A stretch of DNA of 42,830 nt from Azohydromonas caseinilytica (GTDB lineage: Bacteria; Pseudomonadota; Gammaproteobacteria; Burkholderiales; Burkholderiaceae_C), in assembly GCF_012927045.1 (NCBI RefSeq), contig NZ_JABBFW010000038.1:1-42830 (forward strand). Direction: 5' to 3'. The notes beneath the pieces were generated by a model that was not told the origin of the DNA, did no database searches, and worked only from the letters and a program-made list of their open reading frames with translations. Every line of letters begins with the position of its first letter. The first letter of the stretch is position 1. This document shows, one piece after another, positions 12,062 through 20,346 of the stretch. Position numbers and translations under genes: made by a program.

Positions 12062-13675
12062 TCAGCGTCCTGCCAAGTCCGTACCGCTGCTGAGCAGGCC
12101 CTGCAGCACCTCCGGGTCCACGGGCTTGGTCAAGTGGTGATCGAAGCCGGCTTGCAGCGCGGCGCGCCGGTCCTGCTCGTTGCCCCAACCGGTGAGCGCC
12201 ACCAGCAGCAGGCGTCCGCCATCGGGCAACTGCCGCAGGCGCTGCGCCACCTCGTAACCATTGAGGCCCGGCAGGCCGATATCCAGCAGCACCACCTCGG
12301 GCCGCCAGCGCGTCGCCACCTCCAGCGCCGATTCGCCGTCAGCGGCCGTCGCCACGGCATGGCCTGACAGCTCCAGCAGCAGCGCCAGGGTGTGCGCGGC
12401 GTCCTGGTTGTCGTCCACCACCAGCACGCGGCGGCCCGAGCCGGCACCGGAAGTTGCCGATTCGGCCGCCACATCCGCCGGCTGGTCCTGCAGCAGCGGC
12501 AGCCGCACGGTGAAGACGCTGCCTTGGCCCAGCCCCGGACTGGCCGCGCTGATCGTGCCGCCATGCAGCGTCACGAGGCCACGCACCAGCGCCAGCCCGA
12601 TGCCCAGCCCGCCATGCGCGCGCTCCAGCGCCGGTTCCAGCTGGGAGAACATCTCGAATACGCGCGCCAGGTGCTCGGCCGCGATGCCGATCCCGTTGTC
12701 AGCCACGGCCATCACCACCTCATGGCCTTCGACGCTGCAGCTCAGCGTGATGTGGCCGCCCTGCGGCGTGTACTTCACGGCATTGCCCAGCAGGTTGACC
12801 AGCACCTGCGTCAGGCGCACCGGGTCCGCCTGCAGCCACAAGGGCTGCGGCGGCAGCGTCAGGGCCAGCCGGTGGCCCGCGGCCTGCAGTGCCGGGCGCA
12901 CCGCCTCCACGGCACCCTGCACCAGCGGCGCCAGCTCCAATGGCTGCAGCCGCAACTGCAGCTTGCCCTGCGTGATGCGCGAGACCTCCAGCAGGTCGTC
13001 CACCAGCTGCGTCATGTGGCCGACCTGGCGCTGCAGCACGTCGCGGGCCCAGCGCAGCTGCGGGTCCGGCAGCTCCTTCAGGCGCAGGATCTCCAGCACG
13101 TTGCGCATGGGCGCCAGCGGATTACGCAGCTCATGCGCGAGCGTGGCCAGGAACTCGTCCTTGCGGCGGTCGGCCTCGCTGAGCTGCTCGTTGAGCCGGC
13201 GCAGCGCGTCCCGGCTTTGCTCCAGGGCCTGCTCGGCCTCGCGGCGCTCGGCCAGCGCGGTCTCGGCATGGCGGCGGGCCAGCAGCAGCTCCTGCTCGTA
13301 CTTGTGGCGGTCGTACACCACCACCGCCGAGAGCTCGTCGAACACCGTGCCGCCATGCCGGCGCCGCACGACGTTGACCAGCATCGGGATGCGGCGCTGG
13401 CCATCGCGGTGCGCGAATTCCACCTTCAGCTCCGCGATGGAGCCCTGCATCGACAGCAGCGGCGCCCAATGCGTCTGGTGGAAGATGCGCCCGCCCATGG
13501 TGAGCAGGTCCTGCACCCGGCGCTGCTCCACCAGCTCGGCCTTGCCGTAGCCCAGCCAGCCGCAGAAGGTCTGGTTGACGGCGGCGATGCTGCCGTCGGC
13601 CCGCGCCAGCAGCAGCCCGCAGGGCGCCTGCTCCAACAGCAGCTCCGGCGCGGGCAGGTCGGGCGGCGCGGGCAC
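12062..13675 (-). CDS. PAS hybrid histidine kinase (PAS-HisKA-HATPase-REC), partner of RsbQ-like protein
   Basis: About 537 residues from a GTG at 13675, four bases after the RsbQ-like stop. The N-terminal PAS domain (about 10-125) has the form found in RsbP-type proteins (GGRIFHQTHWAPLL, then SIAELKVEF). A coiled coil (about 130-175) leads to the HisKA phosphoacceptor His181 (LAHELRNPL), then N and G boxes (LLGNAVKYT, VADNGIGI, GGLGIGLALV) and a receiver domain with Asp465 (LLDIGLPGLNG). There are no membrane helices, so it senses in the cytoplasm. In Bacillus, RsbQ signals to the PAS domain of the RsbP phosphatase; here the PAS output is a hybrid kinase. It is the last gene of the six-gene operon. 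Confidence 0.88.
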   Translation of the reverse strand: MPAPPDLPAPELLLEQAPCGLLLARADGSIAAVNQTFCGWLGYGKAELVEQRRVQDLLTMGGRIFHQTHWAPLLSMQGSIAELKVEFAHRDGQRRIPMLVNVVRRRHGGTVFDELSAVVVYDRHKYEQELLLARRHAETALAERREAEQALEQSRDALRRLNEQLSEADRRKDEFLATLAHELRNPLAPMRNVLEILRLKELPDPQLRWARDVLQRQVGHMTQLVDDLLEVSRITQGKLQLRLQPLELAPLVQGAVEAVRPALQAAGHRLALTLPPQPLWLQADPVRLTQVLVNLLGNAVKYTPQGGHITLSCSVEGHEVVMAVADNGIGIAAEHLARVFEMFSQLEPALERAHGGLGIGLALVRGLVTLHGGTISAASPGLGQGSVFTVRLPLLQDQPADVAAESATSGAGSGRRVLVVDDNQDAAHTLALLLELSGHAVATAADGESALEVATRWRPEVVLLDIGLPGLNGYEVAQRLRQLPDGGRLLLVALTGWGNEQDRRAALQAGFDHHLTKPVDPEVLQGLLSSGTDLAGR

Positions 13676-13679
13676 GGCG

Positions 13680-17181: not shown

Positions 17182-20100
17182 TCACTTGGGGCACCAGACG
17201 CGGCACAGCGACACGAGCCGGTCCACGTCGATGGGCTTGGCGATGTAGTCGTTGGCGCCGGCTTCCAGGCAGCGCTCGCGGTCCTCGGGCATGGCCTTGG
17301 CCGTGAGCGCGATGATGGGCAGCGCGCTCCAGCGCGCCTCGGCCCGGATGCGGCGCATGGCTTCGAGGCCGTCCATCTCCGGCATCATGATGTCCATCAG
17401 CACCAGGTCGATGTCCTGGGCTTCGAGCCGCTGCAGCGCCTCGCGCCCGTTGCGCGCGATCTCCAGCCGCACGCCCAGCGGCTCCAGCACGCTGGAGAGG
17501 GCAAAGATGTTGCGCGCGTCGTCCTCGGCCAGCAGCACACGGCGCCCGTCGAGCACGGCGTCGCGCTTGAGCGCCTGGCGCAGCAGCTGCTGCTGCGCCG
17601 GCGGCAGCGCCGACTCCACGCTGTGCAGGAACAGCGTCACCTCGTCGAGCAGCCGCTCCGGCGAGCGCGCGCCCTTGACGATGATCGACTTGGAGTAGCG
17701 CCGCAGCCGCTGCTCCTCGTCGCGGGTCAGCGTGCGGCCGGTGTAGACGATCACGGGCGGGAAGGCGCGGCCGTCCATGGCGGCCATGCGGTCGAGCAGG
17801 TCGTAGCCGCTGCCGTCAGGCAGCGCCAGGTCCGTGACCATGCAGTCGAAGGTGCCCGCCTCCAGGGCCTGCAGCGCCTCGGCCATGGTGCCCACGGCCG
17901 TGATCTCCAGCGTGCCGTCGGCCAGCAGCCGCTGCAGGCTCTCACGCAGCGTGGGGTCGTCCTCCACGATCAGCAGCCGGCGCAGCGGCTGCTGCAGCCG
18001 CTGCTCGATGGCGGCAATGGCCTGCGACAGCGACTCCTGCGTGGGCGGCTTGAGCAGGTGCCCCACCGCGCCCAGCTCCATCGCCGTCTGCCCGCGCTCC
18101 AGGGCCGAGACGGTGTGCACCGGCACGTGGCGCGTGGCCGGGTCGCGCTTGAGCTGCTCCAGCACCGTCAGCCCCGAGCCGTCGGGCAGCATGATGTCGA
18201 GCAGGATGCCCTGCGGCCGCAGCTCGCGCGCCAGCCGCAGCGCCTCGGCGGCGCTGGCGGCCACCACGGCATCGAAGTCCTGCTCGCGCACCAGCCGCAG
18301 CATCGCCTGCGAGAAGGCCGGCTCGTCCTCGACGATGAGGATCAGTCGCCCGGGATGGCGGCGCTGCCCGCGGTCGTCAGGTACCCCGCCGGCGTCACCG
18401 CTGGGCGCGGCGGCGGGCACCGCCGGGGCCGGGGCGGGCGCCGCGGACGAGGGCGCCGGGCTCGCCGGGGCGGTGGTGGCGGCATCCGACCAGACCGGCG
18501 CGGGCGGCGGTGGCGGCAGCACCGGCGCCGCGGGCTCCGCCTGCGTCTGCGCCTGGGCCAGCGCCTCGGCCTGAGCGCTCATGTCCGCCGGCAGCTCCAG
18601 GGTGAACGTGCTGCCCCGGCCGGGCTGGCTCTGCAGCGTGATGTCGCCGCCCATGCGCCGCGCCAGCTCGCGCGCGATCGACAAGCCCAGGCCCGTGCCG
18701 CCGTACTTGCGGCTGGTGCTGCCGTCGGCCTGGCGGAAGGCCTCGAAGATGACTTGCTGCTGCTCGCGCGCGATGCCGATGCCGGTGTCGCGCACCGTGA
18801 AGCGCACGCGCCCGCCGGCGGCGGGCTCGACCCGCAGCGCCACCTCGCCGCGGTCGGTGAACTTCACCGCGTTGGCCAGCAGGTTGCGCAGGATCTGCTG
18901 CAGCCGCTGGCGGTCGCCGACCAGGCGCGCCGGCGCGTCCGGCGCCGCCTCGGCCTCGAAGCGCAGCCCTTTCTGCCGCGTCAGCGGCTCGAAGGAGGTC
19001 TTCATGCGCTCCAGCAGGTCCGCCAGGGCGATGGGCTCTGCCGCCAGGTCGGCATGGCCGGCCTCGATCTTGGACAGGTCCAGGATGTCGTTGATGAGCA
19101 CCAGCAGGTCGTTGTTGGCGTCGAAGATCGCCTGCGCGTACTTCACCTGCTCGGCATTGAGGTTGTTCTCGCGGTTGTCGCGCAGCAGCTTGGCCAGGAT
19201 GAGCGCGCTGTTGAGCGGCGTGCGCAGCTCGTGCGACATGTTGGCCAGGAACTCCGACTTGTAGCGGCTGGCCTCTTCCAGCCGCCGCGCGTACGCCTGC
19301 AGCTCGGTGCGCGAGGCCAGCAGCACCTGCTTTTGGCGCTCCAGCGCCTGGGTCTGCTCCTCCAGCTGCACGTTGGTCTGCTCCAGCTCGGCCTGCTGCG
19401 TCTCCAGCCGGGCCTGCGAGGCCTGCAGGGCACGGCCGTGCTCCTCCAGCTCCTCGTTGGTCACGCGCAGCTCCTCCTGCTGAGCCTGCAGCTCGGTGCT
19501 CTGGCGCTGGGTCTGCTCCAGCAGCTCCGACACCCGCTGGCGGTAGATGGCGGTGCGCAGTGCCACGCCAATGGGCTCGGCGCAGGCGGCCAGCAGCTCC
19601 AGTTCGCGCCGCTGCGGCGGCTCGCGGCGCACCAGGCCCAGTTCGACCACGCCGCAGGGGCGGCCATCGGAGGTCAGCGGCGCCAGCAGCAGGTGCCGCG
19701 GCGTGCTGTGACCCAGCGCGGTGCTCATGTCCAGATGGCCCGCCGGCACGTCGGCCACGGCGCGCGGCGTGGCGCCCGGCTGCGCCGCCTCGCCCACCAG
19801 ACCATGCTGCAGCGGCAACTGCGCCGGCAGCGCCGTCTCGTCCAGCCCGTGGCCGCCGGCCAGCGACAGCACCTTGCCGTCGAGCCGGTACACCGCGCCC
19901 ACCTGCGCGCCGGTGAATTCGCACAGCGCCTGCACCGCCGAGCGGCCCAGCTCCTGCACCGAGCGCTCGCCCAGCAGCGCCTGGCTGATGCGGGTCTCGC
20001 CCTGCTGCAGCCACAGCAGGCGCTGGATGTCGCCGCGCACGTTCAGCACCCGCCAGATGACGACGGCCACCACGCACTGGCACAGCGCACCGACGCTGCG

Positions 20101-20346
20101 GTTGATGAACACCATGTCGAGGTCCGCACCGGGCGGAGACAGCCAGATGCCCAGGAAAACCAGCGCCGCGCTCGCCACGCCCACGGCCAAGGGGCCAGAG
20201 GGCCGCGATTGAAACAGCGTCACCCCAATCGGTAAGAAATACAGGGCCCACTCGGTGTAGCCGCGTGGAGTCATGGCGTCGATGACCAGGATGGTCACCA
20301 GCAGAAGCACGGACAGAGCCAGGATGCGGGAGTCTTTGGACAACAC
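17182..20346 (-). CDS. Membrane-anchored GAF hybrid histidine kinase with three receiver domains
   Basis: A 1054-residue protein from a GTG at 20346. Three or four N-terminal membrane helices (about 5-100, including a [16 protein letters not shown] segment) are followed by a GAF domain (about 115-265) and a long Gln/Glu-rich coiled coil (about 268-365). Then come HisKA with His372 (SHELRTPL), the HATPase domain ([24 protein letters not shown]), an Ala/Pro-rich linker and three receivers with Asp717, Asp839 and Asp985. The coiled coil between GAF and kinase is a signalling helix. This is the first gene of the operon and the only membrane protein in it, so it is the likely input sensor, with phosphoryl groups passed to the other kinases. 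Confidence 0.93.

Follow-up and report, generated by a model that had tools for sequence, protein, structure and literature searches.

Gene Content and Organization of the Operon

The window analyzed in this study is the whole 42,830-base contig NZ_JABBFW010000038.1 of the 6.65 Mb genome of Azohydromonas caseinilytica (assembly GCF_012927045.1), in which six consecutive minus-strand genes (20346–12062) form an operon encoding histidine kinases, a CheR/CheB methylation pair, and an RsbQ-type hydrolase. Its two constituent cassettes, genes 1–4 and genes 5–6, are both already known and are here joined in one operon. The six genes are present where an earlier sequence-only reading had placed them, with Pfam domains that match its description.

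Gene 1 (17182..20346; start codon GTG at 20346 or TTG at 20343) encodes a hybrid histidine kinase that, according to Pfam and an alignment of 114 sequences, is similar in architecture to CfcA of Pseudomonas putida. It contains, in order, a membrane region, a GAF domain, a Glu/Gln-rich coiled coil (residues 268–362), HisKA and HATPase domains, and three receivers, with the phospho-site residues His372 in HisKA and Asp717, Asp839, and Asp985 in the receivers. Gene 2 (16317..17165) encodes a CheR-type methyltransferase (Pfam CheR, E 3.5e-33; CheR_N, E 7.3e-09), and gene 3 (15727..16320) encodes a CheB methylesterase domain without receiver (CheB_methylest, E 2.4e-53), whose catalytic Ser21, His48, and Asp141 are kept in 95, 100, and 100% of 114 aligned sequences, the window included. 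Gene 4 (14510..15730) encodes a REC-HisKA-HATPase kinase (Pfam) that is CfcD-like by position and receiver. It is followed by gene 5 (13680..14513), an RsbQ-type alpha/beta hydrolase whose best solved relative is Bacillus subtilis RsbQ (1wom, E 3.9e-85), and by gene 6 (12062..13675), a PAS-HisKA-HATPase-REC hybrid kinase (Pfam) in which the PAS domain (approximately residues 11–109) falls below the Pfam cut-off. The most likely start of gene 6 is GTG at 13675, and a longer open reading frame opens at 13738. Five receivers are encoded across the operon (Pfam).

The gene junctions measure, in order, +16, −4, −4, −4, and +4 bases, and the three of −4 bases, among them those between CheR and CheB and between gene 4 and rsbQ, are ATGA overlaps. 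The gaps of 16 and 4 bases reported in the sequence-only reading are thus correct, while its four ATGA overlaps reduce to three, because six genes have only five junctions. Genes for CheA, CheW, receptors, or DNA-binding proteins were not found in the operon with Pfam, as that reading had stated, so the operon does not classify as a Che system. A gene encoding a PAS-containing methyl-accepting chemotaxis protein (MCP) is located elsewhere on the contig (1948–3516).

Distribution and Variants of the Core Cassette

Genes 1–4 follow the order of cfcABCD in P. putida, where a five-gene cluster is described as starting with a hybrid kinase and containing a CheB/CheR system (cfcB/cfcC) and a receiver-bearing CfcD (PMC4951495). 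This likeness is one of gene order and of domains as described in that source, from whose description the assignment of CfcB/CfcC to CheR/CheB is also taken. The earlier statement that no characterized system has this gene set holds, within the literature searched, only for the six genes together, since genes 1–4 agree with the order described for cfcABCD.

We defined the strict core as genes for a hybrid kinase, CheR, CheB, and a REC-kinase in that order. A CheB search of 299 genomes of the family (cut-off E 1e-35) gave matches in 57, A. caseinilytica included, and 60 of the 61 places outside the window were fetched (G082 was left out). The strict core is present in 53 of these 60 loci. Among those that fail the rule (L128, L129, L130, L245, L230, L244, and L246), the first four have CheB adjoining a CheB-CheR fusion kinase, CheR of L230 was split by the gene caller, and CheB of L246 was uncalled. 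The genome_contigs sample, consisting of the best 80 of 89 relatives and sharing contigs with family loci in five cases, contains the strict core in 73 of 80 loci, mostly from Xanthomonas, Stenotrophomonas, and near kin (the exceptions being L187, L220, L221, L222, L224, L225, and L226), and its closest CheB relatives come from Azohydromonas lata, A. australica, and A. aeria. Consecutive genes for a response regulator, CheR, CheB, and a response regulator are likewise listed in a plasmid record from Rhizobium. With more than 100 other loci showing genes 1–4 in this order, their arrangement is more than chance.

No RsbQ gene adjoins the core in any of the strict core loci of the family and genome_contigs surveys. 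The sole RsbQ scoring above 100 bits within the fetched core flanks is that of A. australica (L148), which is 42% identical to the window protein, lies about 8 kb past the last gene of the core on the same strand, and is paired with a PAS-GGDEF protein; its proximity to the core is possibly due to chance. An alpha/beta hydrolase of about 300 residues is encoded directly upstream of the core in L100, L101, L105, L106, L107, L126, L228, L229, and L240. Hydrolases at or near the upstream end of the core were considered as RsbQ candidates and rejected: for those of L100, L101, L105, L106, L107, L112, L116, L117, and L126, scores against the window RsbQ do not exceed 29.5 bits (L105 gave no score), those of L228, L229, L234, and L240 all remain below 100 bits, and called RsbQs score at least 126.7 bits.

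The fourth slot of the core is occupied by a receiver-GGDEF protein in L338, L339, L350, and L354 and by a REC-PAS-PAS-GGDEF protein in L244, and its occurrence in these five loci supports a cyclic-di-GMP (c-di-GMP) output. In P. putida, the activity of the c-di-GMP enzyme CfcR is described as requiring CfcA and its His496 (PMC4951495). The core in A. caseinilytica may have a c-di-GMP output as well.

The RsbQ-PAS Pair

All 31 aligned RsbQ-type proteins, that of the window among them, share the catalytic residues Ser104, Asp226, and His254 of the gene 5 hydrolase, which bears out the intact Ser-Asp-His triad reported earlier. In B. subtilis, RsbQ is reported to bind a PAS domain, and the same study describes 45 cases in which homologues of RsbQ and RsbP-PAS are adjacent, the outputs being phosphatases, histidine kinases, or diguanylate cyclases (Nadezhdin, Brody, and Price, 2011; PMC3183031). 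The suggestion that the hydrolase acts with the PAS kinase matches the RsbQ-PAS module as published there. Gene 6 begins 4 bases after gene 5, its PAS domain could be aligned with those of 24 partners of other RsbQs, and it shares an F-alpha stretch with them. When residues were placed by hand on the window PAS, with RsbP itself unaligned, C19, L22, L58, R63, F65 (at the position of RsbP Phe55), H69, E82, and P97 appear to fit among the nine class residues of RsbP-PAS; by hand placement from the text of PMC3183031, H66 takes the position of B. subtilis Cys56. No DIT motif was seen by eye in the window PAS, and the best match of this domain in a PDB search has an E-value of 0.0011.

An RsbQ survey of 60 relatives (E up to 1e-40) and 399 genomes of the order (E up to 1e-50) led to 33 fetched loci, in 31 of which RsbQ was called (L138 and L144 being the others). 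Next to RsbQ, a same-strand protein with an N-terminal PAS domain is encoded in 24 of the 31 loci, as a kinase in 13 and as a GGDEF protein in 11; no such neighbor was called in L025, L029, L032, L036, L134, L135, and L146. RsbQ matches at 1e-50 occur in only three of 369 genomes of the class, the own genome included, and the neighbor counts leave out two of these class-level hits. Annotated plasmids likewise carry a hydrolase gene followed by a PAS sensor kinase gene (Variovorax and Rhizobium) or by one for an "ATP-binding protein" (Paraburkholderia).

The core adjoins RsbQ in 0 of the 31 loci, and CheB or CheB-CheR occurs elsewhere in the fetched stretch only in L033 (the same A. australica place as L148) and L141 (a fusion, on the opposite strand). 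The sequence-only reading had proposed that the six genes constitute one dedicated small-molecule sensing module, to be recognized by the same six genes around RsbQ homologues and given up if the hydrolase had other neighbors in all its relatives, which is largely what we found. The tight polycistron with its overlaps speaks for such a module. However, no other surveyed locus shows this arrangement, not even those of three congeners, and its two parts stand apart in them, so that we discarded a conserved six-gene module and consider a dedicated one very unlikely.

Targets of CheR and CheB

The usual substrates of CheR and CheB are MCPs, and the operon pair might therefore modify ordinary chemoreceptors, for example the PAS-MCP of the contig, and feed into chemotaxis. 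The presence of that MCP gene at 1948–3516 is in favor of this explanation, as is the finding that, of the 57 genomes with a CheB match, 56 also have MCP matches (cut-off E 1e-5; E 1e-3 for CheW). In six genomes that have one MCP and two CheW matches each, the core CheR alone exceeds the cut-off and thus may serve that receptor. In contrast, the 99% complete genome G025 has an intact core (L116) with no MCP detected at E 1e-5 and no CheW domain at E 1e-3, and its single CheR is that of the core. Given this lack of a detected MCP, CheW, or second CheR, CheR and CheB of G025 probably have another substrate, perhaps the adjacent kinase as the obvious candidate. Furthermore, a role of CfcB/CfcC in chemotaxis was ruled out in P. 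putida, according to the authors of PMC4951495, who cite a 2013 paper. We therefore regard ordinary chemoreceptors as quite unlikely targets.

Methylation of the kinase itself would have a precedent in the reported action of CheR on a two-component protein (PMC8546571). Across 114 sequences, the coiled-coil linker of the kinase has a mean conservation of 0.74, equal to that of receiver 1 (0.74), and the GAF domain and membrane region have values of 0.51 and 0.47; the linker of the REC-kinase reaches 0.65 vs. 0.77 for its receiver. Within residues 275–344, the mean is 0.86 for Glu/Gln positions and 0.74 for hydrophobic or other ones, and the pairs at 289–292, 298, and 301 remain Glu/Gln in 93–99% of the sequences, with other pairs at 76–93%. 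These figures are inflated by relatedness, many of the 114 sequences being from Xanthomonas and Stenotrophomonas. The linker has matches in 57 of 398 genomes of a phylum sample.

Origin of the Joined Operon

Among the loci surveyed, three congeners included, the joined form was seen once only, in this window. The RsbQ of the window has as its sister a copy from A. australica (81% identity, support 100/99), which is encoded at a separate locus downstream of another hybrid kinase and whose partner kinase (L020) shares 73% identity with gene 6. The core proteins are 78–86% identical to those of the three congeners (kinase 78–79%, CheR 85–86%, REC-kinase 81–83%), whose cores lack the pair. In A. 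lata, the start of cfcA is flanked by a gene for a 125-residue protein and by lon; the window homologues of these genes (71 and 86% identical, respectively) are located off the opposite end of the operon, separated from it by parA, parB, and trfA genes. The tail of gene 4 past the last LPR motif has 34 residues vs. 2–9 in the congeners, and is also long in some distant cores. These differences in neighbors and tail would fit a rearrangement that fused two cassettes, with the order of events not proven. We consider it somewhat probable that the six-gene operon arose when two pre-existing cassettes were joined in this lineage specifically.

A further explanation is that the cassettes are mere neighbors, the RsbQ pair riding on the transcript, exchanging nothing with the core, and signaling to an unlinked target of its own. 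This would agree with the separate occurrence of both cassettes in the other surveyed loci, with the single sighting of the joined form, and with the receiver that the PAS kinase itself carries (Pfam). On the other hand, coupled translation is suggested by the ATGA overlap that links gene 4 to rsbQ, and five receivers per transcript allow crosstalk, though without showing it. Cassettes that are neighbors only appear to us a less likely, if plausible, explanation, and crosstalk between them is an inference only.

Several other genes of the contig can be mentioned here. The trfA gene (10691–11545, plus strand), a plasmid-type replication gene, forms together with a ParA-like gene (7874–8512, minus strand; assigned by the start of its sequence) and a ParB_N partition gene (6858–7877, minus strand) a plasmid-type replication/partition set at 6858–11545, and the window TrfA is at most 46% identical to plasmid copies. 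Genes for a quinohemoprotein amine dehydrogenase alpha subunit, a radical SAM protein, and an ABC transporter are consecutive at 32899–39302.

Proposed Signaling Scheme

As a whole, we favor, by a modest measure, an explanation in which a cfc-type core and an RsbQ-PAS pair have been joined into one relay with a second input. The membrane hybrid kinase would transfer phosphate to its own receivers and to the receiver of gene 4, and probably also to an unlinked receiver with c-di-GMP output. CheR would probably methylate the coiled-coil linker of the kinase and the receiver-less CheB demethylate it, which would constitute an adaptation device needing no chemoreceptors. The hydrolase may bind or hydrolyze a small molecule and thereby switch the adjacent PAS kinase by contact, and the RsbQ-PAS pair, placed on the same polycistron through the ATGA junction, would probably provide a second input to the core relay. 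The more specific form of this scheme, in which CheR and CheB methylate Glu/Gln pairs of the kinase coiled coil in receptor-free adaptation and a kinase with an RsbQ/KAI2-like receptor is plugged in as second input, is tentative, and we are doubtful that it holds in full.

A number of observations weigh against this scheme. MCP matches are present in nearly all genomes with a CheB match, and the four Azohydromonas-group genomes hold 31–40 each, so that CheR/CheB of the window may act on MCPs. At 330 and 357 of the window linker, the Glu/Gln pairs persist in just 34 and 7% of the sequences, respectively. The linker seemed exclusive to kinases with CheR/CheB in 40 relatives (7 genomes with one match each, all core kinases), an idea contradicted by the phylum sample: among 40 linker-bearing places hand-picked out of 68 rows, the window included, 13 have no same-strand CheR, with 22 having CheR and CheB and 5 CheR alone. 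The earlier proposal that methylation tunes the membrane kinase is thus indirectly supported by G025 and the conserved Glu/Gln-rich linker and weakened by the occurrence of this linker apart from same-strand CheR. No gene of the own genome was identified as cfcR-like: the best non-self match to the receiver of gene 4 lies in a different kinase cassette, and a REC-GGDEF protein ranks fourth (39%), which supports a c-di-GMP output only weakly. The lon neighborhood was found in one of the three congeners only, the fetched flanks of the other two being without it. Other cfc mutants of P. putida retained the crinkle phenotype, according to unpublished results cited in PMC4951495. Pfam finds a GAF domain and no CHASE3 domain on the window kinase, so "cfc-type" refers here to gene order and domain content and not to proven orthology.

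If true, receptor-free adaptation would give a two-component relay a chemotaxis-like memory. The presence of CheR and CheB in a genome without a detected chemoreceptor makes it testable whether a histidine kinase can be a target of chemotaxis-type adaptation, and L116 of G025 offers a clean natural test of CheR/CheB on a non-chemoreceptor target. As a cassette swap made by nature, the joined operon could reveal in what way a receptor of the RsbQ type can be wired to a phosphorelay; the cue of RsbQ was unknown as of 2011 (PMC3183031).

Comparison With Known Systems

No paper on the six-gene set was found in the literature searched, which leaves most subscription papers outside its coverage, and BiofilmReg (PMC5192318) is a different system. 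The hydrolase belongs to the family of the KAI2/D14 karrikin and strigolactone receptors and has strong sequence matches among them (E 2.3e-57 to 1.2e-42), but scores far higher with RsbQ. Wsp is a chemosensory system with an alternative cellular function. Similar to such systems, the window operon would employ CheR and CheB outside flagellar taxis; different from them, it is without CheA, CheW, and receptor.

The cfcABCDE cluster of P. putida shares with the window a hybrid kinase as first gene, a CheB/CheR pair (CfcB and CfcC), and a receiver in CfcD. References on CfcA/CfcR are cited in PMC9600515 and PMC12125118, and a title in these lists points to a response to salts. Different from CfcA, which is a CHASE3/GAF kinase (PMC6849547), the window kinase has GAF without a CHASE3 match, and in the window RsbQ follows gene 4 with no linked CfcR. 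Similar to the RsbQ-RsbP PAS module, an RsbQ with a complete triad is encoded directly upstream of a protein with an N-terminal PAS domain, and the output is a hybrid kinase, as in three of the kinases described in PMC3183031. Different from that module, which has a phosphatase and a sigma-B branch that are missing from this operon, the window pair forms the end of a cfc-type operon.

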